64,000 bases of DNA from contig NC_081183.1 in the NCBI RefSeq assembly GCF_029867415.1, positions 55,626,336 to 55,690,335 on the forward strand, written 5' to 3'. The position numbers and the translations under genes are program-made. This DNA comes from Vicia villosa (Eukaryota > Streptophyta > Magnoliopsida > Fabales > Fabaceae). Numbering within the stretch: position 1 is the stretch's first letter; every line of letters begins with the position of its first letter. This document shows, piece after piece, positions 23,927 to 61,535 of the stretch. A model generated the notes under the pieces. The model had not been told where the DNA came from, made no database searches, and saw only the letters and a program-made list of their open reading frames with translations.

Positions 23927-23928
23927 AT

Positions 23929-25058: not shown

Positions 25059-25149
25059 GAGTCCACATACGAATGATTCGAACCTTCAAATTCCAATCTA
25101 TCTTTCCAGCGTGAATGTTATCAATGAAAGTAAATATAGGTAGTGCCTT
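25059..25149 (-). pseudogene. RPA1-like copy 0, exon 1 fragment
   Basis: Only exon 1 from the start-codon position to the Sirevirus breakpoint. The start codon is AAG instead of ATG (25149-25147), so this copy had lost its start. Exons 2-3 should lie on the far side of the Sirevirus, outside the window. Confidence 0.85.
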
Positions 25150-25692
25150 TGAATAAACTATGGAAAAGAAAGCTGAATATTGGAGAGATGAATTTATACC
25201 AATTGGGTGGAGGAGAACTGAATTTATACCAATTTGGTGGAGGAGTTACGCATGAATAAAATGAGATTGTGATTTGGAACATGGGTTTATGATTTATAAA
25301 AAACGTGGGTTTAGAATTTGGATGTGGGGTTTTGAGACCGTATCAAAGAATGTGGGTTTGTGATTTAGAAAATAAGAATGTATGTTTAGTTGACCTGGTA
25401 ATGAAACATGGGTTTGAATTAATACGTTGGTGAAATAAGTAGTTTTTTTAGGATTTATTTTATTCAATATATTTAATATTTAATAATAATTAGTGCGTTT
25501 AATCGGGTTAAATCAACTAAAAAGTAGGAAACAATGAAAGTATTTTGTTTAGGATTTATTTCATTTAATATATTTAGTAAATTAATAATTAGTAATGAAA
25601 CGTGGGGGGATGAAATTAGTTTGAGAAAATAATATATACCATAAATTAAATTACGTAATTTAATATAATGATAAGCTATTATTAAATCTTAC

Positions 25693-26417
25693 TCTAAATC
25701 CTCAAGAACAATGTTAATCAGCTTGTAGTTTTTTCAATTCTTTGGAGTTTGTTCAATGTTGTCCTTTTCCACAAAATGTGCAATTACATCTGTTAAATTC
25801 AAGAAAAAAATTACATATAAATTTAGCCAAATGAATTATAAATTTTGTTTTTGTAAATTCATAAATAAATGTGAATGTAAATATAAAATAATATAACATA
25901 ATATATATACCAAGTAATTTATCACCATTTGTACCTGAGAGGATATATGAAAAAGCAACAAAATCAAAATGATTTGTTGGAATTTCATTCGAAACTATGT
26001 TACTGCACTTTGTAGCTCCCATAAAGTTCAATTTGAACTTATGTGTTACTGGTTTGAATTTCATTTCATTTATGGCAACTAAGATAGTTTCAAATATATA
26101 AGTAGAACCTTCCTTTAAGGATTCTTGAATCTGTGTGATAAGTCTTTTCCTCACTGTAGCCGGAATCTTTCCATACTACGATGAAAAAAAGATGAAAATA
26201 CAAATACAAAATCAATATAGATTGTAAATATTATTATGAAATTAAAAATGTAAAATATTTATACCTTTTCGTCAAGTAGAATCATCTCCAAACTGTTTGT
26301 TCCAGATGGATTTTTGAATTCAGGTTGAGTCCACGTACGAATGATTCGAACCTTCAAATTCCAATCAATCTTTCCAGCGTGAATGTTATCAATGAAAGTA
26401 ATTATAGGAAGTGCCAT
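25693..26417 (-). pseudogene. RPA1-like copy 1 (left-edge variant)
   Basis: Exon 1 26265-26417, intron 26176-26264, exon 2 25911-26175, intron 25790-25910, exon 3 25693-25789, with the structure set out for copy 2. Exon 2 carries private changes (ETILVAINE, KPVTHKF, SGTNGD). The spliced frame is open to the shared TGA. Confidence 0.85.
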
Positions 26418-26458
26418 TGAATAAACTATGGAAAAGAAAGCTGAATATTGGAGAGATG

Positions 26459-26496
26459 AATTTATACCAGTTTGGTGGAGGAGAACTGAATTTATA
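26459..26496 (-). promoter_or_regulatory. Duplicated TATA-like box upstream of each unit's exon 1 (copy 1 shown)
   Basis: GGTATAAATTCA occurs twice on the minus strand, with TATAAATT at 26466-26459 and 26496-26489, about 42 and 72 bases before the ATG of copy 1. The pair comes from a 30-base duplication that includes CTCCTCCACCAAA. The same pair precedes exon 1 in every complete unit. Promoter activity is inferred. Confidence 0.5.
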
Positions 26497-26959
26497 CCAA
26501 TTTGGTGGAGGAGTTACGCATGAATAAAATGAGATTGTGATTTGGAACATGGGTTTATGATTTATAAAAAACGTGGGTTTAGAATTTGGATGTGGGGTTT
26601 TGAAACCGTACCAAGAATGTGCGTTTGTGATTTAGAAAATAAGAATGTATGGTTAGTTGACCTGGTAATGAAACATGGGTTTGAATTAATACGTTGGTGA
26701 AATAAGTAGTTTTTTTAGGATTTATTTTATTCAATATATTTAATATTTAATAATAATTAGTGCGTTTAATCGGGTTAAATCAACTAAAAAGTAGGAAACA
26801 ATGAAAGTATTTTGTTTAGGATTTATTTCATTTAATATATTTAATAAATTAATAATTAGTAATGAAACGTGGGGGGATGAAATTAGTTTGAGAAAATAAT
26901 ATATACCATAAATTAAATTACGTAATTTAATATAATGATAAGCTATTATTAAATCTTAC

Positions 26960-27684
26960 TCTAAATCCTCAAGAACAATGTTAATCAGCTTGTAGTTTTT
27001 TCAATTCTTTGGAGTTTGTTCGATGTTGTCCTTTTCCACAAAATGTGCAATTACATCTGTTAAATTTAAGAAAAAAATTACATATAAATTTAGCCAAATG
27101 AATTATAAATTTTGTTTTTGTAAATTCATAAATAAATGTGAATGTAAATATAAAATAATATAACATAATATATATACCAAGTAATTTATCACCATTTGTA
27201 GCTGAGAGGATATATGAAAAAGCAACAAAATCAAAATGATTTGTTGGAATTTCATTCGAAACTATGTTACTGCACTTTGTAGCTCCCATAAAGTTCAATT
27301 TGAACTTGTGTGTTGCTGGTTTGAATTTCATTTCATTTCTGGCAACTAAGACAATTTCAAATAAATAAGTAGAACCTTCCTTTAAGGATTCTTGAATCTG
27401 TGTGATAAGTCTTTTCCTCACTGTAGCCGGAATCTTTCCATACTACAATGAAAAAAAGATGAAAATACAAATACAAAATCAATATAGATTGTAAATATTA
27501 TTATGAAATTAAAAATGTAAAATATTTATACCTTTTCGTCAAGTAGAATCATCTCCAAACTGTTTGTTCCAGATGGATTTTTGAATTCAGGTTGAGTCCA
27601 CGTACGAATGATTCGAACCTTCAAATTCCAATCAATCTTTCCAGCGTGAATGTTATCAATGAAAGTAATTATAGGAAGTGCCAT
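26960..27684 (-). pseudogene. RPA1-like copy 2 (reference unit): three-exon OB-fold gene fragment
   Basis: Exon 1 (51 codons from ATG 27684) reads MALPIITFIDNIHAGKID and continues LKVRIIRTWTQPEF...SLEMILLDEK. A GTATAAAT...CATTGTAG intron follows. Exon 2 (265 bases) begins YGKIPATVRKRLITQIQESL and includes NEMKFKPATHKFKLNF, NHFDFVAFSYILS and NGDKLL. A GTATATAT...TTTAACAG intron follows; exon 3 gives DVIAHFVEKDNIEQTPKN, an in-frame TGA, then KLINIVLEDLE up to a GTAAG donor. This is the order seen in plant RPA1/DUF223 single-stranded-DNA-binding proteins (KVRIIRTW, SLEMILLDE, FKLNF, LLDVI, IVLEDLE). Full-length relatives are several hundred residues; only the first OB-fold region is here. The spliced product to the TGA would be about 157 residues. 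Transcription is not shown. Confidence 0.85.
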
Positions 27685-28226
27685 TGAATAAACTATGGAA
27701 AAGAAAGCTGAATATTGGAGAGATGAATTTATACCAGTTTGGTGGAGGAGAACTGAATTTATACCAATTTGGTGGAGGAGTTACGCATGAATAAAATGAG
27801 ATTGTGATTTGGAACATGGGTTTATGATTTATAAAAAACGTGGGTTTAGAATTTGGATGTGGGGTTTTGAAACCGTACCAAGAATGTGCGTTTGTGATTT
27901 AGAAAATAAGAATGTATGGTTAGTTGACCTGGTAATGAAACATGGGTTTGAATTAATACGTTGGTGAAATAAGTAGTTTTTTTAGGATTTATTTTATTCA
28001 ATATATTTAATATTTAATAATAATTAGTGCGTTTAATCGGGTTAAATCAACTAAAAAGTAGGAAACAATGAAAGTATTTTGTTTAGGATTTATTTCATTT
28101 AATATATTTAATAAATTAATAATTAGTAATGAAACGTGGGGGGATGAAATTAGTTTGAGAAAATAATATATACCATAAATTAAATTACGTAATTTAATAT
28201 AATGATAAGCTATTATTAAATCTTAC

Positions 28227-28951
28227 TCTAAATCCTCAAGAACAATGTTAATCAGCTTGTAGTTTTTTCAATTCTTTGGAGTTTGTTCGATGTTGTCCTT
28301 TTCCACAAAATGTGCAATTACATCTGTTAAATTTAAGAAAAAAATTACATATAAATTTAGCCAAATGAATTATAAATTTTGTTTTTGTAAATTCATAAAT
28401 AAATGTGAATGTAAATATAAAATAATATAACATAATATATATACCAAGTAATTTATCACCATTTGTAGCTGAGAGGATATATGAAAAAGCAACAAAATCA
28501 AAATGATTTGTTGGAATTTCATTCGAAACTATGTTACTGCACTTTGTAGCTCCCATAAAGTTCAATTTGAACTTGTGTGTTGCTGGTTTGAATTTCATTT
28601 CATTTCTGGCAACTAAGACAATTTCAAATATATAAGTAGAACCTTCCTTTAAGGATTCTTGAATCTGTGTGATAAGTCTTTTCCTCACTGTAGCCGGAAT
28701 CTTTCCATACTACAATGAAAAAAAGATGAAAATACAAATACAAAATCAATATAGATTGTAAATATTATTATGAAATTAAAAATGTAAAATATTTATACCT
28801 TTTCGTCAAGTAGAATCATCTCCAAACTGTTTGTTCCAGATGGATTTTTGAATTCAGGTTGAGTCCACGTACGAATGATTCGAACCTTCAAATTCCAATC
28901 AATCTTTCCAGCGTGAATGTTATCAATGAAAGTAATTATAGGAAGTGCCAT
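28227..28951 (-). pseudogene. RPA1-like copy 3
   Basis: Matches copy 2 by eye except for the exon 2 variant YIFEIV (TATATAAGT instead of TAAATAAGT on the plus strand), shared with copies 1, 13 and 17. Shared TGA in exon 3. Confidence 0.85.
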
Positions 28952-29493
28952 TGAATAAACTATGGAAAAGAAAGCTGAATATTGGAGAGATGAATTTATA
29001 CCAGTTTGGTGGAGGAGAACTGAATTTATACCAATTTGGTGGAGGAGTTACGCATGAATAAAATGAGATTGTGATTTGGAACATGGGTTTATGATTTATA
29101 AAAAACGTGGGTTTAGAATTTGGATGTGGGGTTTTGAAACCGTACCAAGAATGCGCGTTTGTGATTTAGAAAATAAGAATGTATGGTTAGTTGACCTGGT
29201 AATGAAACATGGGTTTGAATTAATACGTTGGTGAAATAAGTAGTTTTTTTAGGATTTATTTTATTCAATATATTTAATATTTAATAATAATTAGTGCGTT
29301 TAATCGGGTTAAATCAACTAAAAAGTAGGAAACAATGAAAGTATTTTGTTTAGGATTTATTTCATTTAATATATTTAATAAATTAATAATTAGTAATGAA
29401 ACGTGGGGGGATGAAATTAGTTTGAGAAAATAATATATACCATAAATTAAATTACGTAATTTAATATAATGAAAAGCTATTATTAAATCTTAC

Positions 29494-30218
29494 TCTAAAT
29501 CCTCAAGAACAATGTTAATCAGCTTGTAGTTTTTTCAATTCTTTGGAGTTTGTTCGATGTTGTCCTTTTCCACAAAATGTGCAATTACATCTGTTAAATT
29601 TAAGAAAAAAATTACATATAAATTTAGCCAAATGAATTATAAATTTTGTTTTTGTAAATTCATAAATAAATGTGAATGTAAATATAAAATAATATAACAT
29701 AATATATATACCAAGTAATTTATCACCATTTGTAGCTGAGAGGATATATGAAAAAGCAACAAAATCAAAATGATTTGTTGGAATTTCATTCGAAACTATG
29801 TTACTGCACTTTGTAGCTCCCATAAAGTTCAATTTGAACTTGTGTGTTGCTGGTTTGAATTTCATTTCATTTCTGGCAACTAAGACAATTTCAAATAAAT
29901 AAGTAGAACCTTCCTTTAAGGATTCTTGAATCTGTGTGATAAGTCTTTTCCTCACTGTAGCCGGAATCTTTCCATACTACAATGAAAAAAAGATGAAAAT
30001 ACAAATACAAAATCAATATAGATTGTAAATATTATTATGAAATTAAAAATGTAAAATATTTATACCTTTTCGTCAAGTAGAATCATCTCCAAACTGTTTG
30101 TTCCAGATGGATTTTTGAATTCAGGTTGAGTCCACGTACGAATGATTCGAACCTTCAAATTCCAATCAATCTTTCCAGCGTGAATGTTATCAATGAAAGT
30201 AATTATAGGAAGTGCCAT
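29494..30218 (-). pseudogene. RPA1-like copy 4
   Basis: Standard-class copy with the same exon-intron layout as copy 2. The bases 3' of exon 3 read GAAAAGCT instead of GATAAGCT on the plus strand, a marker shared with copies 5-8. Confidence 0.85.
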
Positions 30219-30759
30219 TGAATAAACTATGGAAAAGAAAGCTGAATATTGGAGAGATGAATTTATACCAGTTTGGTGGAGGAGAACTGAATTTATACCA
30301 ATTTGGTGGAGGAGTTACGCATGAATAAAATGAGATTGTGATTTGGAACATGGGTTTATGATTTATAAAAAACGTGGGTTTAGAATTTGGATGTGGGGTT
30401 TTGAAACCGTACCAAGAATGCGCGTTTGTGATTTAGAAAATAAGAATGTATGGTTAGTTGACCTGGTAATGAAACATGGGTTTGAATTAATACGTTGGTG
30501 AAATAAGTAGTTTTTTAGGATTTATTTTATTCAATATATTTAATATTTAATAATAATTAGTGCGTTTAATCGGGTTAAATCAACTAAAAAGTAGGAAACA
30601 ATGAAAGTATTTTGTTTAGGATTTATTTCATTTAATATATTTAATAAATTAATAATTAGTAATGAAACGTGGGGGGATGAAATTAGTTTGAGAAAATAAT
30701 ATATACCATAAATTAAATTACGTAATTTAATATAATGAAAAGCTATTATTAAATCTTAC

Positions 30760-31484
30760 TCTAAATCCTCAAGAACAATGTTAATCAGCTTGTAGTTTTT
30801 TCAATTCTTTGGAGTTTGTTCGATGTTGTCCTTTTCCACAAAATGTGCAATTACATCTGTTAAATTTAAGAAAAAAATTACATATAAATTTAGCCAAATG
30901 AATTATAAATTTTGTTTTTGTAAATTCATAAATAAATGTGAATGTAAATATAAAATAATATAACATAATATATATACCAAGTAATTTATCACCATTTGTA
31001 GCTGAGAGGATATATGAAAAAGCAACAAAATCAAAATGATTTGTTGGAATTTCATTCGAAACTATGTTACTGCACTTTGTAGCTCCCATAAAGTTCAATT
31101 TGAACTTGTGTGTTGCTGGTTTGAATTTCATTTCATTTCTGGCAACTAAGACAATTTCAAATAAATAAGTAGAACCTTCCTTTAAGGATTCTTGAATCTG
31201 TGTGATAAGTCTTTTCCTCACTGTAGCCGGAATCTTTCCATACTACAATGAAAAAAAGATGAAAATACAAATACAAAATCAATATAGATTGTAAATATTA
31301 TTATGAAATTAAAAATGTAAAATATTTATACCTTTTCGTCAAGTAGAATCATCTCCAAACTGTTTGTTCCAGATGGATTTTTGAATTCAGGTTGAGTCCA
31401 CGTACGAATGATTCGAACCTTCAAATTCCAATCAATCTTTCCAGCGTGAATGTTATCAATGAAAGTAATTATAGGAAGTGCCAT
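30760..31484 (-). pseudogene. RPA1-like copy 5
   Basis: Standard-class copy. The unit step between copies 4 and 5 is 1266 rather than 1267, from one T fewer in the T-run at about 30512. Confidence 0.85.
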
Positions 31485-32026
31485 TGAATAAACTATGGAA
31501 AAGAAAGCTGAATATTGGAGAGATGAATTTATACCAGTTTGGTGGAGGAGAACTGAATTTATACCAATTTGGTGGAGGAGTTACGCATGAATAAAATGAG
31601 ATTGTGATTTGGAACATGGGTTTATGATTTATAAAAAACGTGGGTTTAGAATTTGGATGTGGGGTTTTGAAACCGTACCAAGAATGCGCGTTTGTGATTT
31701 AGAAAATAAGAATGTATGGTTAGTTGACCTGGTAATGAAACATGGGTTTGAATTAATACGTTGGTGAAATAAGTAGTTTTTTTAGGATTTATTTTATTCA
31801 ATATATTTAATATTTAATAATAATTAGTGCGTTTAATCGGGTTAAATCAACTAAAAAGTAGGAAACAATGAAAGTATTTTGTTTAGGATTTATTTCATTT
31901 AATATATTTAATAAATTAATAATTAGTAATGAAACGTGGGGGGATGAAATTAGTTTGAGAAAATAATATATACCATAAATTAAATTACGTAATTTAATAT
32001 AATGAAAAGCTATTATTAAATCTTAC

Positions 32027-32751
32027 TCTAAATCCTCAAGAACAATGTTAATCAGCTTGTAGTTTTTTCAATTCTTTGGAGTTTGTTCGATGTTGTCCTT
32101 TTCCACAAAATGTGCAATTACATCTGTTAAATTTAAGAAAAAAATTACATATAAATTTAGCCAAATGAATTATAAATTTTGTTTTTGTAAATTCATAAAT
32201 AAATGTGAATGTAAATATAAAATAATATAACATAATATATATACCAAGTAATTTATCACCATTTGTAGCTGAGAGGATATATGAAAAAGCAACAAAATCA
32301 AAATGATTTGTTGGAATTTCATTCGAAACTATGTTACTGCACTTTGTAGCTCCCATAAAGTTCAATTTGAACTTGTGTGTTGCTGGTTTGAATTTCATTT
32401 CATTTCTGGCAACTAAGACAATTTCAAATAAATAAGTAGAACCTTCCTTTAAGGATTCTTGAATCTGTGTGATAAGTCTTTTCCTCACTGTAGCCGGAAT
32501 CTTTCCATACTACAATGAAAAAAAGATGAAAATACAAATACAAAATCAATATAGATTGTAAATATTATTATGAAATTAAAAATGTAAAATATTTATACCT
32601 TTTCGTCAAGTAGAATCATCTCCAAACTGTTTGTTCCAGATGGATTTTTGAATTCAGGTTGAGTCCACGTACGAATGATTCGAACCTTCAAATTCCAATC
32701 AATCTTTCCAGCGTGAATGTTATCAATGAAAGTAATTATAGGAAGTGCCAT
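32027..32751 (-). pseudogene. RPA1-like copy 6
   Basis: Standard-class copy; I see no coding difference from copies 4 and 5. Confidence 0.85.
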
Positions 32752-33293
32752 TGAATAAACTATGGAAAAGAAAGCTGAATATTGGAGAGATGAATTTATA
32801 CCAGTTTGGTGGAGGAGAACTGAATTTATACCAATTTGGTGGAGGAGTTACGCATGAATAAAATGAGATTGTGATTTGGAACATGGGTTTATGATTTATA
32901 AAAAACGTGGGTTTAGAATTTGGATGTGGGGTTTTGAAACCGTACCAAGAATGCGCGTTTGTGATTTAGAAAATAAGAATGTATGGTTAGTTGACCTGGT
33001 AATGAAACATGGGTTTGAATTAATACGTTGGTGAAATAAGTAGTTTTTTTAGGATTTATTTTATTCAATATATTTAATATTTAATAATAATTAGTGCGTT
33101 TAATCGGGTTAAATCAACTAAAAAGTAGGAAACAATGAAAGTATTTTGTTTAGGATTTATTTCATTTAATATATTTAATAAATTAATAATTAGTAATGAA
33201 ACGTGGGGGGATGAAATTAGTTTGAGAAAATAATATATACCATAAATTAAATTACGTAATTTAATATAATGAAAAGCTATTATTAAATCTTAC

Positions 33294-34018
33294 TCTAAAT
33301 CCTCAAGAACAATGTTAATCAGCTTGTAGTTTTTTCAATTCTTTGGAGTTTGTTCGATGTTGTCCTTTTCCACAAAATGTGCAATTACATCTGTTAAATT
33401 TAAGAAAAAAATTACATATAAATTTAGCCAAATGAATTATAAATTTTGTTTTTGTAAATTCATAAATAAATGTGAATGTAAATATAAAATAATATAACAT
33501 AATATATATACCAAGTAATTTATCACCATTTGTAGCTGAGAGGATATATGAAAAAGCAACAAAATCAAAATGATTTGTTGGAATTTCATTCGAAACTATG
33601 TTACTGCACTTTGTAGCTCCCATAAAGTTCAATTTGAACTTGTGTGTTGCTGGTTTGAATTTCATTTCATTTCTGGCAACTAAGACAATTTCAAATAAAT
33701 AAGTAGAACCTTCCTTTAAGGATTCTTGAATCTGTGTGATAAGTCTTTTCCTCACTGTAGCCGGAATCTTTCCATACTACAATGAAAAAAAGATGAAAAT
33801 ACAAATACAAAATCAATATAGATTGTAAATATTATTATGAAATTAAAAATGTAAAATATTTATACCTTTTCGTCAAGTAGAATCATCTCCAAACTGTTTG
33901 TTCCAGATGGATTTTTGAATTCAGGTTGAGTCCACGTACGAATGATTCGAACCTTCAAATTCCAATCAATCTTTCCAGCGTGAATGTTATCAATGAAAGT
34001 AATTATAGGAAGTGCCAT
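33294..34018 (-). pseudogene. RPA1-like copy 7
   Basis: Standard-class copy; its upstream part carries the GTGCGTTTG marker (about 34220) where copies 3-6 carry GCGCGTTTG. Confidence 0.85.
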
Positions 34019-34560
34019 TGAATAAACTATGGAAAAGAAAGCTGAATATTGGAGAGATGAATTTATACCAGTTTGGTGGAGGAGAACTGAATTTATACCA
34101 ATTTGGTGGAGGAGTTACGCATGAATAAAATGAGATTGTGATTTGGAACATGGGTTTATGATTTATAAAAAACGTGGGTTTAGAATTTGGATGTGGGGTT
34201 TTGAAACCGTACCAAGAATGTGCGTTTGTGATTTAGAAAATAAGAATGTATGGTTAGTTGACCTGGTAATGAAACATGGGTTTGAATTAATACGTTGGTG
34301 AAATAAGTAGTTTTTTTAGGATTTATTTTATTCAATATATTTAATATTTAATAATAATTAGTGCGTTTAATCGGGTTAAATCAACTAAAAAGTAGGAAAC
34401 AATGAAAGTATTTTGTTTAGGATTTATTTCATTTAATATATTTAATAAATTAATAATTAGTAATGAAACGTGGGGGGATGAAATTAGTTTGAGAAAATAA
34501 TATATACCATAAATTAAATTACGTAATTTAATATAATGAAAAGCTATTATTAAATCTTAC

Positions 34561-35285
34561 TCTAAATCCTCAAGAACAATGTTAATCAGCTTGTAGTTTT
34601 TTCAATTCTTTGGAGTTTGTTCGATGTTGTCCTTTTCCACAAAATGTGCAATTACATCTGTTAAATTTAAGAAAAAAATTACATATAAATTTAGCCAAAT
34701 GAATTATAAATTTTGTTTTTGTAAATTCATAAATAAATGTGAATGTAAATATAAAATAATATAACATAATATATATACCAAGTAATTTATCACCATTTGT
34801 AGCTGAGAGGATATATGAAAAAGCAACAAAATCAAAATGATTTGTTGGAATTTCATTCGAAACTATGTTACTGCACTTTGTAGCTCCCATAAAGTTCAAT
34901 TTGAACTTGTGTGTTGCTGGTTTGAATTTCATTTCATTTCTGGCAACTAAGACAATTTCAAATAAATAAGTAGAACCTTCCTTTAAGGATTCTTGAATCT
35001 GTGTGATAAGTCTTTTCCTCACTGTAGCCGGAATCTTTCCATACTACAATGAAAAAAAGATGAAAATACAAATACAAAATCAATATAGATTGTAAATATT
35101 ATTATGAAATTAAAAATGTAAAATATTTATACCTTTTCGTCAAGTAGAATCATCTCCAAACTGTTTGTTCCAGATGGATTTTTGAATTCAGGTTGAGTCC
35201 ACGTACGAATGATTCGAACCTTCAAATTCCAATCAATCTTTCCAGCGTGAATGTTATCAATGAAAGTAATTATAGGAAGTGCCAT
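34561..35285 (-). pseudogene. RPA1-like copy 8
   Basis: Standard-class copy, last of the run with the GAAAAGCT marker 3' of exon 3. Confidence 0.85.
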
Positions 35286-35827
35286 TGAATAAACTATGGA
35301 AAAGAAAGCTGAATATTGGAGAGATGAATTTATACCAGTTTGGTGGAGGAGAACTGAATTTATACCAATTTGGTGGAGGAGTTACGCATGAATAAAATGA
35401 GATTGTGATTTGGAACATGGGTTTATGATTTATAAAAAACGTGGGTTTAGAATTTGGATGTGGGGTTTTGAAACCGTACCAAGAATGTGCGTTTGTGATT
35501 TAGAAAATAAGAATGTATGGTTAGTTGACCTGGTAATGAAACATGGGTTTGAATTAATACGTTGGTGAAATAAGTAGTTTTTTTAGGATTTATTTTATTC
35601 AATATATTTAATATTTAATAATAATTAGTGCGTTTAATCGGGTTAAATCAACTAAAAAGTAGGAAACAATGAAAGTATTTTGTTTAGGATTTATTTCATT
35701 TAATATATTTAATAAATTAATAATTAGTAATGAAACGTGGGGGGATGAAATTAGTTTGAGAAAATAATATATACCATAAATTAAATTACGTAATTTAATA
35801 TAATGATAAGCTATTATTAAATCTTAC

Positions 35828-51162: not shown

Positions 51163-51887
51163 TCTAAATCCTCAAGAACAATGTTAATAAGCTTGTAGTT
51201 TTTTCAATTCTTTGGAGTTTGTTCGATGTTGTCCTTTTCCACAAAATGTGCAATTACATCTGTTAAATTTAAGAAAAAAATTACATATAAATTTAGCCAA
51301 ATGAATTATAAATTTTGTTTTTGTAAATTCATAAATAAATGTGAATGTAAATATAAAATAATATAACAAAATATATATACCAAGTAATTTATCACCATTT
51401 GTAGCTGAGAGGATATATGAAAAAGCAACAAAATCAAAATGATTTGTTGGAATTTCATTCGAAACTATGTTACTGCACTTTGTAGCTCCCATAAAGTTCA
51501 ATTTGAACTTGTGTGTTGCTGGTTTGAATTTCATTTCATTTCTGGCAACTAAGACAATTTCAAATAAATAAGTAGAACCTTCCTTTAAGGATTCTTGAAT
51601 CTGTGTGATAAGTCTTTTCCTCACTGTAGCCGGAATCTTTCCATACTACAATGAAAAATAGATGAAAATACAAATACAAAATCAATATAGATTGTAAATA
51701 TTATTATGAAATTAAAAATGTAAAGTATTTATACCTTTTCGTCAAGTAGAATCATCTCCAAACTATTTGGTCCAGATGGATTTTTGAATTCAGGTTGAGT
51801 CCACGTACGAATGATTCGAACCTTCAAATTCAAGTCAATCTTTCCAGCGTGAATGTTATCATTGAAAGTAATTATAGGAAGTTCCAT
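51163..51887 (-). pseudogene. RPA1-like copy 22 (promoter split by Tork element)
   Basis: Exons 2-3 standard class; exon 1 second class (MELPIITFNDN, KIDLNLK). The sequence upstream of exon 1 is interrupted 140 bases from the ATG by the Tork element at 52028; the rest of the unit resumes at 56922. Confidence 0.85.
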
Positions 51888-52027
51888 TGAATAAACTATG
51901 GAAAAGAAAGCTGAATATTGGAGAGATGAATTTATACCAATTTGGTGGCGGAGAACTGAATTTATACCAATTTGGTGGAGGAGTGACGCATGAATAAAAT
52001 GAGATTGTGATTTGGAACATGGGTTTA

Positions 52028-52454
52028 TGTGAGATATTGGATCGAACTCTAGTATGGCCGAAGGGTAGCTTCTTGGTTCGACAGGGTTAAGCATGATGTC
52101 GAAGGTTGTTCACATGCTTGTGTCGAAGATGCTAGGGTTGTTAGCATGTTAAATTAGGTTTTAGTGTTTAAACCCTAATTTGTTAAGTTAGCTTGTTTAT
52201 TAAGTTGACTTGTGTAATGGGCCTTGTGGAAAAAGCCCATTAGTTAGTATGTTAGGTTTTATTATAAATAGCATACTAGTCTCTCATCATTGCTAAGCTG
52301 CAAATCCTAATTTAGGGTGAGAGAGGTTATTTGTTATTCTTGTAAACTTGTAATCTTGTTTTAAGAGAAAGTAAAAGAATAACGGTTATAACCAATTCTT
52401 GTGTTCCTCTTCTTCCTTGTTTTATACTTTGTTCTTGGCATTGAATTCACAACA
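52028..52454 (+). repeat. 5' LTR of the Tork element
   Basis: 427 bases, TGTGAGATATTGG...TTCACAACA. Identical by eye to the 3' LTR up to about 52395; the last 55-60 bases differ at many positions and include a net 9-base length difference. Confidence 0.92.
52263..52270 (+). promoter_or_regulatory. TATA box in the Tork 5' LTR
   Basis: TATAAATA, 236 bases into the LTR and repeated at 56721-56728. Transcription would start about 30 bases further, near TCTCTCATCATTGC. Confidence 0.6.
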
Positions 52455-52457
52455 AAT

Positions 52458-52474
52458 TGGTGCGGTGAGCGTGG
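52458..52474 (+). other. Tork primer binding site matching tRNA-Phe
   Basis: TGGTGCGGTGAGCGTGG lies 3 bases after the LTR end. Its complement, CCACGCTCACCGCACCA, equals the 3' end of plant cytosolic tRNA-Phe as I recall it. Most plant copia elements use initiator Met-tRNA instead. Confidence 0.7.
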
Positions 52475-52479
52475 AGAAG

Positions 52480-55400
52480 ATGCCGTCAACAAAGTATGAG
52501 ATTGAAAAGTTCACCGGAGTGAATGATTTCGGTCTGTGGCGCTTGAAGATGAAAGCCCTACTGGTTCAGCAGGGTTGTTTGGAAGCGTTGAAGGGAGAGG
52601 CAGCCATGAATGCTGCATTAACGGCAGCGGAGAAGACGACTATGATTGAGAAGGCACACAGCGCAATTTTGTTGAGCCTTGGTGATAAGGTTCTCAGGCA
52701 GGTATCAAAGGAGACGACGGCATCAGGGTTATGGGTGAAACTTGAAAGTTTGTACATGACCAAATCGCTGGTAAATCGACTCTACCTGAAGCAAGCTTTG
52801 TATTCATTCAAGATGATTGAAGACAAAGTATTGGCTGAGCAGTTGGATATGTTCAACAAGCTGATTCTTGATCTTGAAAATATTGATGTGAAAATCGATG
52901 ATGAAGATCAAGCGCTGTTACTATTGTGTTCTTTGCCTCGATCACATGCTCACTTCAAAGAAACTCTCTTGTATGGAAGGGAGTCCTTGACGTTTGAAGA
53001 AGTTCAATCAGCCTTGTACTCTAAGGACTTGAATGAACGAAAGGAGCATAAACCTTCGACTGTTGGCGAAGGTTTGGCCGTTAAAGGAAAACTCTTACGA
53101 AAGGATGGTAAGTTCGACAAGAAGAAAGGCAAAAGCCAGTCGAAGACTTACAGTGGCGAAGCATCTGGCATTCGATGCTACCATTGTAAGAAGGAGGGTC
53201 ACACAAGAAAGGTGTGCCCTGAACGCTTGAAATATCATGGAGGTAAGGATAATGGCAACGCTGCCATTGTTCAAGATGATTTCGAATCATCTGATGTTCT
53301 TGTGGTTTCAAGCAGTGACTCTAAGAAGGAGTGGATTATGGATTCAGGTTGCACTTGGCACATGACTCCAAACAAAGACTTGTTCGAGGAATTATGTGAT
53401 CAAGATGGTGGATCAGTATTGCTGGGAAACAACAAGGCTTGCAAGATTGCAGGTGTTGGATCTGTGAGATTCAAGCTCCATGATGAGTCAATAAAGTTGT
53501 TGACTGAAGTCAGGTATGTTCCTGATTTGAAGAGAAATTTGCTTTCTCTTGGTGAATTCGACAAGAAAGGATATGTTTTCCAAGGAGAGAAAAGCATCCT
53601 AAGAGTCATGAAGGGGTCGAAGGAAGTCTTGAGAGGCGTGAAGAAACAAGGCTTGTATACCCTTGAGGCTGAAGTTGTAAGTGGTTCGACAAATGTTGTA
53701 TCCACGAAACCTTTGTCGAAGACAGAAATCTGGCACATGAGATTGGGCCATGTCAGTGAAAGGGGTCTGGTCGAATTAGGGAAACAAAATCTGCTTGGTG
53801 GAGACAAAATCGAAAAGCTGAAGTTTTGTGAACCCTGTGTACTTGGAAAATCTTGCAGAGTGAAGTTCAACAAAGGCAAACAAAGAACACATGGATCCCT
53901 TGATTACATCCATGCTGATCTTTGGGGGCCTGCAAGGTGTCCATCACATTCAGGAGCAAGGTATTTTCTATCCATAGTAGATGATTATTCCAGAAAATTA
54001 TGGGTATTCATCCAGAAGACTAAGGATGAAACTTTTGAGAATTTCAAAAGTTGGAAGACTCTGGTTGAAAATCAGACTGGCAGAAAGGTCAAGAGGTTGA
54101 GAACCGACAATGGCCTTGAATTTTTCAATGAGGCATTCGACAGTTTTTGTGCTGCCTCTGGTATTGCAAGGCATAGAACTACTGCAGGTACTCCACAGCA
54201 AAATGGTTTGGCTGAAAGGTTTAATCGAACTATTTTGGAGAGAGTCAGATGCATGTTGACTAGTGCGGGGTTAACAAAGGTGTTCTGGGCTGAGGCTGTT
54301 TCGACAGCAACATATCTGATAAACAGATGTCCTTCGACAGCGTTAGATATGAAGACACCTGAAGAAGTTTGGTCGGGACATCCACCAGATCTCGACAAAC
54401 TGAGAGTATTTGGCTGCGTAGCCTATGCTCACATTAGGCAAGACAAGGTCGAACCTAGAGCTCTGAAATGCATGTTCATGGGATACCCTGAAGGAGTCAA
54501 AGCTTATAGGCTATGGTGCCTAGAGCCAGGTCACAGGAGGTGTATCACCAGTCGAGATGTAGTTTTTAATGAAGCTAAAATGGCTTTTAAGAAAACTGAT
54601 GATGTTGGTCGAAGTACAGAAACATCTGACGAAGAGCTGGAACAGGTAGAGATTCCTGTTGAGGTGGAGCATGTTGATGCTGAATTGCATATCCCAGATG
54701 AAGTCGAAGAAGAAGCAGAAGATGCTGAAGTTGAGGAAACTGACGATGACTACCTATTGTCGAGAGATAGGTCGAGAAGAGTCATCAAGCCACCTCAAAG
54801 ACTTGGATATGCAGATCTTATAGCTTATGCCTTAATCTCTGCAAGTGAGGTTCTAGACGAAGAACCTAGAGACTATAAGGAAGTTATGAGGAGTCGAAAT
54901 AAGACTGAATGGCTGAAGGCCATGGATGATGAGATGAAATCTCTTCATGATAATCATACTTGGGAACTGATCAAGAAACCTGTTGGGGCAAGGTTAGTCA
55001 GCTGTAAATGGATTTTCAAAGTTAAGGAAGGAATTGAAGGAGTGACGTCGAAAAGATACAAGGCAAGGTTAGTTGCAAGGGGTTTCACTCAGAAAGAAGG
55101 TGTCGACTTCAATGATGTGTTTTCTCCTGTTGTGAAGCATAGGTCCATTCGAATGTTGCTTGCCATGGTGGCACAGTTCGATCTTGAACTGGAACAGATG
55201 GATGTGAAGACTGCGTTCTTGTATGGTGATCTAGATGAAACGATCCTGATGAGGCAACCTGGAGGGTATGTCGAAAAGGGGAAGGAAGATTATGTGTGCA
55301 AGTTAAAGAGATCTTTGTATGGGCTGAAACAATCTCCTCGACAGTGGAATAGGAGATTCGACAAGTTCATGGCACGCATAAGTTTCATTAGAAGTCAGTT

Positions 55401-56442
55401 CGACCATTGCGTTTACTTCAGATTTCGACCTGGTAATTCATTTGTTATTTTGTTACTTTATGTGGATGATATTCTCATAGCAAGCAACAATGTTGAAGAT
55501 GTGATGAGGGTGAAGGCTGAACTCAATAAGGAGTTCGATATGAAGGATCTGGGAGCTGCTTCCAGGATTCTTGGAATTGACATTCGAAGAGATAGAAAGA
55601 AGTCGAAGTTATGTCTATCTCAAGAGGCATATCTACGGAAGATTCTTGAAAAGTTTGGTATGTCGAATTCGAAGCCAGTTGTGACTCCAACAAACCCTCA
55701 ATTCAAGCTGAGTGTTGATCAGTGTCCCAGTACTGATGTCGAAATAGCCTATATGAATAGCATCCCATATGCTAATATAGTTGGTTCTTTGATGTATGCT
55801 ATGGTCTGTACTAGACCCGACATAGCTTACGCAGTCAGTCTTGTAAGCAGGTACATGGCGAATCCTGGAAAGGCTCACTGGCAAGCATTGAAGTGGATTT
55901 TAAGGTACATAAATGGGTCTCTGAATAGAGTCCTAATTTATGGTGGAGCCTTGGGTGAAGATAGTAAAGCAGTAATAGAAGGATATGTCGACTCTGATTA
56001 TGCAGGTTGTATGGATTCTAGAAAGTCTATTTCTGGATATGTTTTCACTATGTTTGGCACAGCAATTAGTTGGAAAGAAACTCTTCAGAAGGTTGTTGCT
56101 CTATCAACCACTGAAGCGGAATATATTGCTCTCACTGAAGCTGTGAAAGAAGCATTGTGGCTTGAAGGTTTTGCAAAGGAGCTGAAACTTCAAGGTCGAA
56201 GTATCACTGTTAAATGTGATAGTCAGAGTGCAATACACCTGTCGAAGAATTCAGCCTATCATGAGCGAACTAAGCACATTGATGTGAGGCTGCATTTCGT
56301 CAGAGGAGTAATCGAGCGTGGAGAAGTCCAAGTGCTGAAGGTTTCGACTGAAGACAATGCTGCTGATATGATCACCAAGACATTGCCGAGTTGCAAGTTT
56401 TTCCACTGTATGCAGTTGATAAAGCTGCATGAAGAAAGCTAG
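52480..56442 (+). CDS. Tork-lineage gag-pol polyprotein, intact
   Basis: 1320 codons from ATG 52480 to TAG with no break. The frame is open further upstream into the LTR, but there it has no ATG, so 52480 is the likely start. Domains in order: gag (MPSTKYEIEKF start), zinc knuckle CYHCKKEGHTRKVC from residue 233, protease DSG at 288, integrase zinc region from His 419 (HMRLGH...CEPC), integrase catalytic Asp 480, Asp 543 and Glu 579 (spacing 35), reverse transcriptase YVDD at 994-997, RNase H from Asp 1171 (VDSDYAG) with STTEAEY and VKCDSQSA. Gag, protease, integrase, reverse transcriptase, RNase H is the copia order; gag resembles Tnt1. It would make particles in the cytoplasm, copy its RNA and integrate the cDNA. 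Expression is not shown. Confidence 0.95.
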   Translation: MPSTKYEIEKFTGVNDFGLWRLKMKALLVQQGCLEALKGEAAMNAALTAAEKTTMIEKAHSAILLSLGDKVLRQVSKETTASGLWVKLESLYMTKSLVNRLYLKQALYSFKMIEDKVLAEQLDMFNKLILDLENIDVKIDDEDQALLLLCSLPRSHAHFKETLLYGRESLTFEEVQSALYSKDLNERKEHKPSTVGEGLAVKGKLLRKDGKFDKKKGKSQSKTYSGEASGIRCYHCKKEGHTRKVCPERLKYHGGKDNGNAAIVQDDFESSDVLVVSSSDSKKEWIMDSGCTWHMTPNKDLFEELCDQDGGSVLLGNNKACKIAGVGSVRFKLHDESIKLLTEVRYVPDLKRNLLSLGEFDKKGYVFQGEKSILRVMKGSKEVLRGVKKQGLYTLEAEVVSGSTNVVSTKPLSKTEIWHMRLGHVSERGLVELGKQNLLGGDKIEKLKFCEPCVLGKSCRVKFNKGKQRTHGSLDYIHADLWGPARCPSHSGARYFLSIVDDYSRKLWVFIQKTKDETFENFKSWKTLVENQTGRKVKRLRTDNGLEFFNEAFDSFCAASGIARHRTTAGTPQQNGLAERFNRTILERVRCMLTSAGLTKVFWAEAVSTATYLINRCPSTALDMKTPEEVWSGHPPDLDKLRVFGCVAYAHIRQDKVEPRALKCMFMGYPEGVKAYRLWCLEPGHRRCITSRDVVFNEAKMAFKKTDDVGRSTETSDEELEQVEIPVEVEHVDAELHIPDEVEEEAEDAEVEETDDDYLLSRDRSRRVIKPPQRLGYADLIAYALISASEVLDEEPRDYKEVMRSRNKTEWLKAMDDEMKSLHDNHTWELIKKPVGARLVSCKWIFKVKEGIEGVTSKRYKARLVARGFTQKEGVDFNDVFSPVVKHRSIRMLLAMVAQFDLELEQMDVKTAFLYGDLDETILMRQPGGYVEKGKEDYVCKLKRSLYGLKQSPRQWNRRFDKFMARISFIRSQFDHCVYFRFRPGNSFVILLLYVDDILIASNNVEDVMRVKAELNKEFDMKDLGAASRILGIDIRRDRKKSKLCLSQEAYLRKILEKFGMSNSKPVVTPTNPQFKLSVDQCPSTDVEIAYMNSIPYANIVGSLMYAMVCTRPDIAYAVSLVSRYMANPGKAHWQALKWILRYINGSLNRVLIYGGALGEDSKAVIEGYVDSDYAGCMDSRKSISGYVFTMFGTAISWKETLQKVVALSTTEAEYIALTEAVKEALWLEGFAKELKLQGRSITVKCDSQSAIHLSKNSAYHERTKHIDVRLHFVRGVIERGEVQVLKVSTEDNAADMITKTLPSCKFFHCMQLIKLHEES

Positions 56443-56473
56443 TGTGTTCCCTTGATGTTGTAGAGTTAGATCC

Positions 56474-56485
56474 AAGGTGGAGATT
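56474..56485 (+). other. Tork polypurine tract
   Basis: AAGGTGGAGATT directly before the 3' LTR, the usual position and composition for copia elements. Confidence 0.8.
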
Positions 56486-56921
56486 TGTGAGATATTGGAT
56501 CGAACTCTAGTATGGCCGAAGGGTAGCTTCTTGGTTCGACAGGGTTAAGCATGATGTCGAAGGTTGTTCACATGCTTGTGTCGAAGATGCTAGGGTTGTT
56601 AGCATGTTAAATTAGGTTTTAGTGTTTAAACCCTAATTTGTTAAGTTAGCTTGTTTATTAAGTTGACTTGTGTAATGGGCCTTGTGGAAAAAGCCCATTA
56701 GTTAGTATGTTAGGTTTTATTATAAATAGCATACTAGTCTCTCATCATTGCTAAGCTGCAAATCCTAATTTAGGGTGAGAGAGGTTATTTGTTATTCTTG
56801 TAAACTTGTAATCTTGTTTTAAGAGAAAGTAAAAGAATAACGGTTATAACCAATTATTGTGTTCTTCTTCTCCCCTATAATTCCCTATTATACTTTGTTA
56901 TTGGTATCGTTTTTCACAACA
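56486..56921 (+). repeat. 3' LTR of the Tork element
   Basis: 436 bases, same start as the 5' LTR, ending TTTTTCACAACA. Followed by GTTTA and the resumed array unit. Confidence 0.92.
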
Positions 56922-57329
56922 GTTTATGATTTATAAAAAACGTGGGTTTAGAATTTGGATGTGGGGTTTTGAAACCGTACCAAGAATGTGGGTTTGTGAT
57001 TTAGAAAATAAGAATGTATGGTTAGTTGACCTGGTAATGAAACATGGGTTTGAATTAATACGTTGGTGAAATAAGTAGTTTTTTTAGGACTTATTTTATT
57101 CAATATATTTAATACTTAATAATAATTAGTGTGTTTAATCAGGTTAAATCAACTAAGAAGTAGGAAACAATGAAAGTAGTTTTTTTAGGGTTTATTTCAT
57201 TTAATATATTTAATAAATTAATAATTAGTAATGAAACGTGGGGGGAATGAAATTAGTTTGAGAAAATAATATATACCATAAATTAAATTACGTAATTTAA
57301 TATAATGATAAGCTATTATTAAATCTTAC

Positions 57330-58054
57330 TCGAAATCCTCAAGAACAATGTTAATCAGCTTGTAGTTTTTTCAATTCTTTGGAGTTTGTTTGATGTGGTC
57401 CTTTTCCACAAAATGTGCAATTACATCTGTTAAATTTAAGAAAAAAATTACATATTAATTGAGCCAAATGAATTATAAAATTTGTTATTTTGAATTCTAA
57501 AATAAATGTGAATGTAAATATAAAATAATATAACATAATATATATACCAACTAATTTATCACCATTTGTAGCTGAGAGGATATATGAAAAAGCAACAAAA
57601 TCAAAATGATTTGTTGGAATTTCATTCGAAACTATGTTACTGCACTTTGTAGCTCCCATAAAGTTCAATTTGAACTTGTGTGTTGTTGGTTTGAATTTCA
57701 TTTCATTTCTCGCAACTAAGACAATTTCAAATAAATAAGTAGAACCTTCCTTTAAGGATTCTTGAATCTGTGTGATAAGTCTTTTCCTCACTGTAGCCGG
57801 AATCTTTCCATACTACAATGAAAAAAAGATGAAAATACAAATACAAAATCAATATAGATTGTAAATATTATTATGAAATTAAAAATGTAAAATATTTATA
57901 CCTTTTCGTCAAGTAGAATCATCTCCAAACTGTTTGTTCCAGATGGATTTTTGAATTCAGGTTGAGTCCACGTACGAATGATTCGAACCTTCAAATTCCA
58001 ATCAATCTTTCCAGCGTGAATGTTATCAATGAAAGTAATTATAGGAAGTGCCAT
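57330..58054 (-). pseudogene. RPA1-like copy 23 (second class)
   Basis: Near-duplicate of copy 18: KPTTHKF, DKLV and the same rearranged intron 2. Confidence 0.85.
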
Positions 58055-58597
58055 TGAATAAACTATGGAAAAGAAAGCTGAATATTGGAGAGATGAATTT
58101 ATACCAATTTGGTGGCGGAGAACTGAATTTATACCAATTTGGTGGAGGAGTGACGCATGAATAAAATGAGATTGTGATTTGGAACATGGGTTTATGATTT
58201 ATAAAAAACGTGGGTTTAGAATTTGGATGTGGGGTTTTGAAACAGTATCAAAGAACATGGATTTGTGATTTAGAAAATAAGAATGTATGGTTAGTTGACC
58301 TGGTAATGAAACATGGGTTTGAATTAATACGTTGGTGAAATAAGTAGTTTTTTTAGGATTTATTTTATTCAATATATGTAATATTTAATAATAATTAGTG
58401 CGTTTAATCGGGTTAAATCAACTAAAAAGTAGGAAGCAATGAAAGTATTTTGTTTAGGATTTATTTCATTTAATATATTTAATAAATTAATAATTAGTAA
58501 TGAAACGTGGGGGGATGAAATTAGTTTGAGAAAATAATATATACCATAAATTAAATTACGTAATTTAATATAATGATAAGCTATTATTAAATCTTAC

Positions 58598-59320
58598 TCT
58601 AAATCCTCAAGAACAATGTTAATCAGCTTGTAGTTTTTTCAATTCTTTGGAGTTTGTTCGATGTTGTCCTTTTCCACAAAATGTGCAATTACATCTGTTA
58701 AATTTAAGAAAAAAATTACATATAAATTTAGCCAAATGAATTATAAATTTTGTTTTTGTAAATTCATAAATAAATGTGAATGTAAATATAAAATAATATA
58801 ACATAATATATATACCAAGTAATTTATCACCATTTGTACCTGAGAGGATATATGAAAAAGCAACAAAATCAAAATGATTTGTTGGAATTTCATTCGCAAC
58901 TATGTTACTGCACTTTGTAGCTCCCACAAATTTCAATTTGAACTTATGTGTTGCTGGTTTGAATTTCATTTCATTTATGGCAACTAAGACAGTTTTAATT
59001 ATATAAGTAGATTCTTCCTTTAAGGATTCTTGAATCTGTCTGATAAGTCTTTTCTTCACTGTAGCCTGAATCTTTCCATACTACGATGAAAAAAGATGAA
59101 AATACAAATACAAAATCAATATAGATTGTAAATATTTTATGAAATTAAAAATGTAAAGTATTTATACCTTTTCCTCAAGTAGAATCATCTCCAAACTATT
59201 TGGTCCAGATGGATTTTTGAATTCAGGTTGAGTCCACATACGAATGATTCGAACCTTCAAATTCAAGTCAATCTTTCCAGCGTGAATGTTATCATTGAAA
59301 GTAATTATAGGAAGTTCCAT
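58598..59320 (-). pseudogene. RPA1-like copy 24 (second class)
   Basis: Near-duplicate of copy 19 (KKRLIRQIQES, FKLKFVGATKC) but without its nonsense codon. Exon 1 is second class. Confidence 0.85.
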
Positions 59321-59863
59321 TGAATAAACTATGGAAAAGAAAGCTGAATATTGGAGAGATGAATTTATACCAATTTGGTGGCGGAGAACTGAATTTATAC
59401 CAATTTGGTGGAGGAGTGACGCATGAATAAAATGAGATTGTGATTTGGAACATGGGTTTATGATTTATAAAAAACGTGGGTTTAGAATTTGGATGTGGGG
59501 TTTTGAAACCGTACCAAGAATGTGGGTTTGTGATTTAGAAAATAAGAATGTATGGTTAGTTGACCTGGTAATGAAACATGGGTTTGAATTAATACGTTGG
59601 TGAAATAAGTAGTTTTTTTAGGACTTATTTTATTCAATATATTTAATACTTAATAATAATTAGTGTGTTTAATCAGGTTAAATCAACTAAGAAGTAGGAA
59701 ACAATGAAAGTAGTTTTTTTAGGGTTTATTTCATTTAATATATTTAATAAATTAATAATTAGTAATGAAACGTGGGGGGAATGAAATTAGTTTGAGAAAA
59801 TAATATATACCATAAATTAAATTACGTAATTTAATATAATGATAAGCTATTATTAAATCTTAC

Positions 59864-60589
59864 TCGAAATCCTCAAGAACAATGTTAATCAGCTTGTAGT
59901 TTTTTCAATTCTTTGGAGTTTGTTTGATGTGGTCCTTTTCCACAAAATGTGCAATTACATCTGTTAAATTTAAGAAAAAAATTACATATTAATTGAGCCA
60001 AATGAATTATAAAATTTGTTATTTTGAATTCTAAAATAAATGTGAATGTAAATATAAAATAATATAACATAATATATATACCAAGTAATTTATCACCATT
60101 TGTAGCTGAGAGGATATATGAAAAAGCAACAAAATCAAAATGATTTGTTGGAATTTCATTCGAAACTATGTTACTGCACTTTGTAGCTCCCATAAAGTTC
60201 AATTTGAACTTGTGTGTTGCTGGTTTGAATTTCATTTCATTTCTGGCAACTAAGAAAATTTCAAATAAATAAGTAGAACCTTCCTTTAAGGATTCTTGAA
60301 TCTGTGTGATAAGTCTTTTCCTCACTGTAGCCGGAATCTTTCCATACTACAATGAAAAAAAGATGAAAATACAAATACAAAATCAATATAGATTGTAAAT
60401 ATTATTATGAAATTAAAAAATGTAAAATATTTATACCTTTTCGTCAAGTAGAATCATCTCCAAACTGTTCGTTCCAGATGGATTTTTGAATTCAGGTTGA
60501 GTCCACGTACGAATGATTCGAAACTTCAAATTCCAATCAATCTTTCCAGCGTGAATGTTATCAATGAAAGTAATTATAGGAAGTGCCAT
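59864..60589 (-). pseudogene. RPA1-like copy 25 (right-edge copy)
   Basis: Intron 2 of the second class combined with a mostly standard exon 2 (EIFLVARNE). Only 65 bases upstream of the ATG remain before the chromovirus-like LTR at 60655, so one of the two TATA-like boxes is lost. Confidence 0.85.
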
Positions 60590-61535
60590 TGAATAAACTA
60601 TGGAAAAGAAAGCTGAATATTGGAGAGATGAATTTATACCAATTTGGTGGCGGATGTAACACCCTTCTAAACCCCACGGAAATTTATAAAATAATTTTCA
60701 GAGTAAAACATGAAAACAAGGGTGTCACAATTAAATTTAAAACAAATCATCATAATTCATTGTCATGCTTTCACTAAGGAACAATCTGTCATAATACATA
60801 AACATCTCATGTTTACACAGCGGAAAATTCATCATACGGATAAGCATAACATCATCTATGCAATATCCCACATAATTTAATACAATAACAACACGATAGA
60901 GTATCATCATAAACTCTAATCTAACGTTCCCCCAGTGTTACAGTATCAGAGCATGACACCTGACGCTACACTAATACACTGACTTATGAGCTAATCCTCA
61001 CCAAGTCGAAAGCAGCTATCCTCAATCTGAAAATGTCAACAGTAAGGGTGAGTCTCATCACAGTTAACAAATGTTATTGCATCTTAAATAACAATACATC
61101 GTAGTTATATCATTCACCCAATTTCATCATATTCAGATTATCAGGAACATCTATCGTTTACACAAACATCAACAGAACACATCTTTCAAACAGACAATCA
61201 TCTCAACATTAATTCAACAAAACACACAACCAACACATCATCAATATTTATAACACTGGAATACATCCAATCATGTTATAAAAATATGCATATGTATGAA
61301 CTGACACTATGCATGTGGTACCAACCTCATCAAATGGGAATAACCCATGACCGATCCAACATCATCAAGATACGGCCCTGCCAGCACAGATTCCACACAA
61401 TGGGAATCATGCCCTTCACTGATCCAACACACCCTTATGGATACAGTATCATCAATGAACATGAATGAATGCAACATATACAACATACTATACCATCGTC
61501 AAGTCTAATGAGTAACATCATCAAATACCCATTTC

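Follow-up and report, generated by a model that had tools for sequence, protein, structure and literature searches.

The stretch of DNA analysed here, 64,000 nucleotides of the Vicia villosa genome (hereafter the window; C4:55626336-55690335, on contig NC_081183.1), harbors a head-to-tail array of repeats, each of which embeds, on the minus strand, the same fragment of an RPA-like (DUF223/OB-fold) gene. Mapping one unit onto the window with blastn placed the array at 25059-60654, with 25 unit places, partial ones included, and 21 complete units of about 1267 bp. An earlier sequence-only reading of this DNA had counted at least 24 head-to-tail units of about 1267 bases over 25059..60654, a claim that is borne out with identical coordinates. 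The partial units are represented by a 741-bp alignment at 25059 and by a 685-bp piece ending at 60654, and two further units are interrupted, one by a 100-N gap (38404-38503) and the other, at about 52028-56921, by a long terminal repeat (LTR) element that we take from its sequence to be of the Ty1/copia type; about 4.9 kb of the interval belongs to this inserted element and not to the array. The features of the array, including one representative repeat whose coordinates were derived from consensus offsets with a precision of 1-2 bp, are the following:

25059..52027, minus strand: left array block, a partial unit (25059-25799) followed by units of about 1267 bp, with the gap inside (blastn map, 21-unit alignment)
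38404..38503, no strand: 100-N assembly gap within the array (unit map)
56922..60654, minus strand: right array block, two complete and two partial units; its end is set by an LTR insertion and is no edge of the array (blastn map)
29398..30664, minus strand: representative repeat, with 5' flank at 30664-30219, ATG at 30218, intron-3 breakpoint at 29424 and filler at 29423-29398 (consensus offsets)
30066..30218, minus strand: exon 1 of the representative repeat, 51 codons (consensus offsets)
29712..29976, minus strand: exon 2 of the representative repeat, second half of DUF223 (profile match, consensus offsets)
29494..29590, minus strand: exon 3 of the representative repeat, with an in-frame TGA at 29535-29537 that is GGA in the dispersed copies L035 and L032 (consensus)

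The array and the gene fragment that it carries

The commonest spacings between shared 20-mers in the window are 1267 and 1266 bp, and the alignment of the 21 complete units gave pairwise identities of 95.3-100% (mean 98.6%), so that chance is not in question. Most of the units are near-identical, those numbered 16-18 and 22-23 along the window being more diverged; units 22-23 repeat units 17-18 at 99.9% and 99.6%, a likeness that is a first sign of block-wise exchange. The G+C content is about 26-30% (AT about 70-74%) in the kilobases that are wholly array and gap-free, and the unit holds two short internal duplications, of 30 and about 58 bp.

Read on the minus strand, the consensus unit comprises a 5' flank, an ATG and exons 1-3, of 153, 265 and 97 bp, separated by two introns. 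Both introns have GT/AG borders, exon 3 is followed by a GT splice donor, and the frame closes at a TGA in exon 3, at codon 158. The spliced product of exons 1-3 matches the Pfam family DUF223 (PF02721) with E=3.8e-16 and 59.7 bits, against a cut-off of 24.6 that the two single-exon open reading frames (ORFs), with 22.4 and 19.5 bits, do not reach; the joined exons 1-2 of L035, one of the dispersed copies discussed below, scored 67.6 bits. The best two matches in a search of solved structures with a four-row profile, both weak, were 1ynx, Replication factor-A protein 1 (E 0.0049), and 4gnx (E 0.018), which was deposited as uncharacterised and which we take to be an RPA complex; the third was an unrelated enzyme (E 0.21). 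The exon borders and the DUF223 match that the sequence-only reading had anticipated for the spliced exons thus bear out its description of the unit as a three-exon, RPA1-like 5' fragment with introns and upstream sequence. Retroposition is rejected because the two introns and the 5' flank have been retained, and the suggestion made in that reading of an amplification at the DNA level holds as well.

Two predicted proteins, P0001 and P0002 (the latter from a 1725-bp JGI contig), are 73% and 91% identical, respectively, to the ORF of the unit along some three quarters of it. Both translate through the intron 2 of the unit, so that DNA related to the unit is present outside the V. villosa assembly. 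The two entries look like transposon- or satellite-derived DNA annotated as protein.

The array extends well beyond the window. Units span C4:55,365,758 to 55,780,704, that is about 415 kb, broken by LTR retrotransposons, and they are also found on unplaced contigs. Neither edge of the array in the window is a true edge, because LTR-type insertions adjoin both and units resume past them. A whole-genome protein search retrieved at least 225 exon-level matches (150 of 1405 candidates scored). Among the matches listed, those on C4 all lie on the minus strand at 55.368-55.780 Mb, and the others fall on the unplaced contigs C1261 and C1329 (on both strands in C1329) and, in nine cases, elsewhere. 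A 264-kb region of C4 (C4:55.576-55.840 Mb; 20 stretches round the window) contains 41 complete and 22 partial units, amounting to 66.5 kb or 52.5 unit equivalents, between the gap at C4:55603551 and position 55780704; at C4 55.369-55.576 Mb the array is known from the listed exon matches alone. At the left tip, an N gap is followed by the first units at C4:55365895 and preceded by a 36-bp piece at 55365758. An in-situ donor was not found at this left edge, where the outermost piece is the one of 36 bp, which stems from intron 2 and adjoins other sequence as well as the N gap. The array is long (about 415 kb), head-to-tail, homogenised and, with a pN/pS of 1.04, noncoding, as satellites are, and its abundance is low for a satellite.

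Concerning the number of units, about 35 bp of identical unit phase (1169-1203) flank the gap at 38404-38503 on either side; the contigs may overlap here, or the gap size may be arbitrary, and for this reason the copy number at this point is uncertain. Two further N gaps adjoin units, at C4:55603452 and C4:55365795. It might be argued from these gaps that the array is an artefact, a misassembly that inflated the copy number. This is very improbable, given that the Vvill1.0 assembly of V. villosa was built from PacBio HiFi reads (PMC10659084) and that distinct variants are found in the units, as are three separate insertions, of which two are bordered by clean 5-bp target duplications and the third by an imperfect one. 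These same points leave the exact copy number unfixed.

The breakpoint, the founder junction and the source of the unit

Six of the nine dispersed copies listed were retrieved (L032, L033, L034, L035, L040 and L041, leaving out those at C574, C218 and C3:217588790). L034 and L040 are 97.8% identical for about 970 bp past the 3' end and were counted once, which gives five independent copies out of six. In five of the six (L032-L035 and L040) the similarity crosses unit position 795, located 70 bp into intron 3, and runs on into the gene, whose exon 4 reads KRINCTLWGTYVEQMQQYLE in L033; at the same position the unit instead jumps to its own 5' flank. L035, the closest of the retrieved copies, matches unit positions 1-795 at 91.5% and 822-1267 at 79.1%, the two being contiguous in L035. 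Since L035 matches both parts as one stretch and the gene continues past the breakpoint, the unit is a single uninterrupted segment of such a gene, which starts at about -423 and ends at about +70 of intron 3, with some 26 bp of filler added. The resulting junction is located in the representative repeat as follows:

29398..29423, minus strand: founder junction, in the order intron-3 sequence, filler and 5'-flank sequence, found in each array set examined and missing from the dispersed copies (comparison)

A search for the junction pattern (gapless, with at most 3 mismatches) gave 28 occurrences genome-wide, all of them in the C4 array, and likewise 28 inside the 264-kb region; the reversed control gave 0. 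Diverged junctions that are one base longer occur at the left tip and in C1261 (three separate pieces). A single founder junction is common to the array sets examined. The filler of the left tip and of part of C1261 contains AAACTACTTTCATTGT or a near-match, a motif that recurs about 75 bp further on; this recurrence would fit slippage or a template switch during the founding event. A phylogenetic tree rooted on L034 and built with 40 of 65 sequences (every second of the 50 from the 264-kb region, and all the others) clustered the 34 array sequences, with L035 and then L041 as the nearest sequences outside.

A remaining question concerns the nature of the gene from which this piece was derived. 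When L032, L033 and L034 are aligned downstream of the gene, their similarity breaks off at a common end, formed by a hairpin (CTCGTGCATCGCACGGG in L034), some ten bases and CTAG, with T as the next base. A hairpin about 10 nt ahead of CTRR, with insertion before a T, is the form taken by the 3' end of Helitrons. The terminal hairpin is regarded as the Helitron stop signal (PMC12628747). In total, the hairpin and a CTAG followed by T stand after the gene in 4 of the 6 retrieved copies, 3 of the 5 independent ones. Upstream of the gene, a 5' motif starting with TC after an A is common to L032 and L036/L034, and ambiguous in L033/L037. Genes for Helitron replication are plentiful in this genome (at least 151 matches to PF14214, 150 of 1160 candidates scored), and non-autonomous Helitrons without a Rep/helicase gene also exist. 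Because the gene continues past the breakpoint in five of six copies and is followed by a Helitron 3' terminus in four of six, the source of the array was most likely an RPA-like gene borne by a Helitron and not a host RPA1 gene.

Two side observations were made on the dispersed copies. L033/L037 (C2:13.710-13.717 Mb) contain two more Helitron 3' ends, one of which stands directly before a 5'-like motif, an arrangement of nested or head-to-tail Helitrons. In L032 (C3:183.227 Mb), an open frame that lies beyond the Helitron 3' end, from nt 2699 on, presumably resembles the endonuclease of a long interspersed nuclear element.

The sequence-only reading had placed the origin of the unit in a plant RPA1-like gene, and a refined form of this idea has to be considered, namely that the 5' end of a host RPA1-family gene was tandemly amplified and that Helitrons merely captured other copies of the same gene. 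The RPA1-like character of the spliced product, the capture of host fragments by Helitrons (PMC12628747) and the lack of a Helitron end in the retrieved stretch of L035 speak for it. An origin of this kind is nonetheless unlikely, and an ordinary plant RPA1 gene as the source is not sustained, in view of the Helitron termini mentioned above and of the distribution of PF08646 (the RPA1 C-terminal domain, Rep_fac-A_C): its six genome matches (17 of 17 candidates scored), at C2:116.3, C4:102.3, C955 and C1:39.2 Mb, all lie elsewhere, none of them at the array or at the dispersed copies, and the nearest is about 47 Mb off on C4. Moreover, many Helitrons of plants have an RPA-like gene themselves (PMC4683698).

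If the source was a Helitron, the array itself might have been formed by Helitron replication, as a rolling-circle concatemer of truncated elements. Arrays of this type, described by Xiong et al. in 27 plant genomes, combine multiple 5' ends with one 3' end and number from several to several hundred repeats (PMC12628747); the model as reviewed there also allows a partial copying that multiplies internal Helitron sequences, a variant that would suit a unit such as the present one. The ends of the elements were compared with the unit. Of four Helitron 5' ends, one speaks for this model with a score of 31, above its shuffled mean (21.4, standard deviation 3.0) and below the highest of 200 shuffles (35), but the match falls at unit positions 743-768, in intron 3 and away from the junction; the scores of the other three were 18, 22 and 25 (shuffled means 20.4-22.2), and real 5' ends reach 50-71 with one another. 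The Helitron 3' end scored 19 (shuffled mean 16.3), the hairpin 3' motif occurs 0 times in the 264 kb of C4 on both strands, and the unit has no CTRR/TC junction. A unit that is a complete Helitron, or a concatemer with its ends, is unsupported by such low scores and by the missing junction, and rolling-circle formation as a whole, the internal variant included, appears improbable.

Several observations weigh against a Helitron-borne source and a single contiguous founding piece. In L041 the similarity to the unit ends at position 611, with no continuation of the gene shown there, and the array clade has a support of just 0.63 in the L034-rooted, subsampled tree. The Helitron 3' end was not seen in the retrieved stretches of L035, the closest copy, and L041; the 5' TC motif was not found in L035/L038, and the sequence upstream of L040 and L041 is hardly covered. 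Among the PF14214 matches listed none lies at the dispersed copies, where no Rep domain is thus shown; the remnant of a helicase C-terminus that we believe we recognise in L034 had no Pfam match, and the zinc-finger-like ORF of L032 had no match to PF08646. Lastly, the C4 region contains, at 55790207, a single copy of a looser 3' motif (GCACG..CTAGT) that lacks the hairpin.

Evolution, growth and invasion of the array

The 41 complete units of the 264-kb region were used to analyse how the units are evolving. Nucleotide diversity (pi) was 0.043, 0.037 and 0.031 in the three exons, 0.026 and 0.036 in the introns and 0.033 in the remainder of the unit. The exon variants comprise 137 nonsynonymous and 34 synonymous changes (pN/pS 1.04), where 136.0 and 38.6 would be expected from the noncoding spectrum, and 11 of the 137 nonsynonymous variants create new stops. 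The first stop is found at codon 158 in 27 of the 41 units and earlier in the other 14. The neutral evolution of the exons speaks against a coding tandem gene family, which is rejected. One might still imagine a tandem family of functional truncated RPA-like genes under selection, for instance for a dominant-negative OB-fold peptide of at most 157 residues, to which the 27 units open through exons 1-3 as far as the TGA would correspond; with an exon diversity that is not below that of the introns and the rest, a pN/pS close to unity, the new stops and the 14 units closed earlier, such a family is highly unlikely. The array most likely does not act as a gene family and has no coding function, and would persist as silent satellite DNA, the chromatin state being one that we infer.

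The stop at codon 158 also gives some insight into the history of the array. TGA is found in 52 of the 52 exon-3 copies matched at C4:55.576-55.840 Mb; the same codon is GGA in both of the two copies matched at the left tip, and in C1261 the nine matched copies have TGA (six), GGA (one) and AGA (two). Among the dispersed copies, L035 and L032 have GGA, L033 is frame-shifted there, and L034, L040 and L041 are unmatched. A TGA fixed before the amplification is ruled out by the GGA of the left tip and by the mixed codons of C1261. Since the left tip has GGA, C1261 is mixed and only C4:55.576-55.840 Mb is uniformly TGA, the stop most likely arose inside the array and spread later.

As for the growth of the array, one LTR element occurs three times at the identical unit phase, and 13.46 kb that include part of this element are repeated at 99.94%:

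C4:55735371-55762279: duplicated 13.46-kb block, array units and part of a retroelement (99.94% identity)

This repeat is evidence of an exchange between misaligned array segments, a recent higher-order step.

Starting from what is directly observed, that is, the anatomy of the unit, the common junction, the Helitron 3' ends on its relatives, the neutrality of the exons and the re-amplification of blocks, we propose that the array is probably a transposon-derived, long-monomer satellite, born from a self-joined piece of a Helitron RPA gene, grown mainly by unequal exchange and noncoding. According to this proposal, a Helitron with an intron-containing RPA-like (DUF223/OB-fold) gene would have left copies in the genome, the donor copy itself presumably being a Helitron. 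In one copy, a segment that starts about 423 bp before the ATG and reaches some 70 bp into intron 3 would have been joined head to tail with itself, by a presumed first duplication, giving rise to one junction with about 26 bp of filler. The dimer would then have grown, mainly by unequal exchange between misaligned units, to the present extent of about 415 kb at one place on C4, its units being homogenised in blocks, decaying neutrally and receiving LTR retrotransposon insertions time and again. We favour one internal duplication with subsequent unequal exchange over rolling-circle copying, whether of an internal piece or of an extrachromosomal circle.

The insertions that fall in the window are:

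52028..56921, plus strand: putative LTR retrotransposon of the Ty1/copia type, lying within a unit; the 384 bp of its LTRs that align are 99.5% identical (alignment)
60655..62786, minus strand: LTR of 2132 bp from an element that interrupts a unit, 99.8% identical to the other LTR of that element; units resume at C4:55694690 (alignment)
1..25058, no strand: part of a 36-kb repeat nest inserted in the array; outer LTRs at C4:55615177-55616308 and 55650264-55651393, 96.8% identical (alignment)

By eye, the junctions of the first element show the target duplication GTTTA and those of the element at 60655 GCGGA. Units continue on the left of the 36-kb nest, ending at C4:55615176; on its two flanks they overlap by five bases of phase, the copies of which differ, so that the target duplication is imperfect. 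If a substitution rate of 1.3e-8 per site per year is adopted, the oldest insertion would date back roughly 1.2 million years, and for this reason the array should be at least about as old. Some other features of these insertions can be mentioned. The final 50-60 bp of the LTRs at 52028-56921 clearly differ, as though the ends stemmed from different templates. Within the 36-kb nest there are a minisatellite on CTCAACCCAGAGTTGAC with periods of 26-154 bp (window 14240-15251) and two direct repeats of 2240 bp, 98.8% identical and 7.7 kb apart (window 7729-9968 and 15467-17706; C4:55634064 and 55641802), which are probably the LTRs of an element nested in the insertion. The long LTR of the right-hand element includes a GC-rich tandem repeat (CGCGGCGC...) at window 62073-62188.

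Comparison with known satellites and Helitrons

The first step in the birth of a satellite is usually erased, and in the present array the donor family, the breakpoints, the founder junction and the block duplications can be read; the source, moreover, was most likely the RPA gene of a Helitron and not a terminal or already repetitive part of a transposon. On the practical side, gene annotation may label such units as truncated "replication protein A" genes. The sequence-only reading regarded a satellite of such genic origin as unusual and knew of no description of this one. This view is weakened by the transposon-derived satellites, Helitron-derived ones included, that have already been described (PMC12628747, PMC9659126) and by the long-monomer satellites of Vicia. 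No published description of a Helitron-RPA satellite in Vicia was found among the top listings of the open-licence literature, and the word "satellite" is absent from the V. villosa assembly paper PMC10659084.

In Vicia faba, 17 long-monomer satellites (VfSat) of 687-2033 bp have been described, which mostly give a single signal in fluorescence in situ hybridization (FISH) and mostly lie near centromeres, four of them in primary constrictions (PMC5895790). The present array shares with them the long monomer, the AT-richness (about 70-74%, where most satellites of that study have 65-80%) and the location at one place, on C4 (plus unplaced contigs), as the VfSat families mostly have one FISH locus each. 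It differs in the two short duplications within its unit, internal subrepeats being missing from all VfSat families but VfSat8, and in an origin that can be read, where the passages of PMC5895790 drawn upon here give no explanation for that of the VfSat families. Compared by description, the array looks like the V. faba long-monomer kind in another Vicia. One may speculate, at rather long odds, that the single-locus, long-monomer satellites of Vicia, which are unusually frequent in this genus, arise as a rule through a random internal piece of a dispersed transposon or gene that was self-joined one time and subsequently expanded, that some of them become centromeres, and that the present array could be centromeric or pericentromeric on its chromosome. 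If this were true, the array would show one such birth with its source still at hand, the donor family and the founder junction both being identifiable; in any case, it offers a testable origin for the long-monomer satellites of this genus.

As regards mobile elements, plant Helitrons with an RPA-like gene (Mothra and its relatives; PMC4683698) carry this gene within the Helitron termini, as the dispersed copies do; the present unit, in contrast, is an internal piece that has no ends and is not mobile as such. The arrays of truncated Helitrons reported by Xiong et al. (as reviewed in PMC12628747) are likewise Helitron-derived, head-to-tail, found in plants and formed by up to several hundred repeats, but in many of them more than one 5' end goes with just one 3' end. 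The present unit is devoid of both kinds of end, and its two limits fall within the gene region. Finally, in PisTR-A, E900 and HinfI (PMC9659126) the monomer also comes from an internal or coding part of a mobile element; the monomer analysed here differs from these in coming from an intron-bearing gene, most likely that of a rolling-circle DNA transposon.

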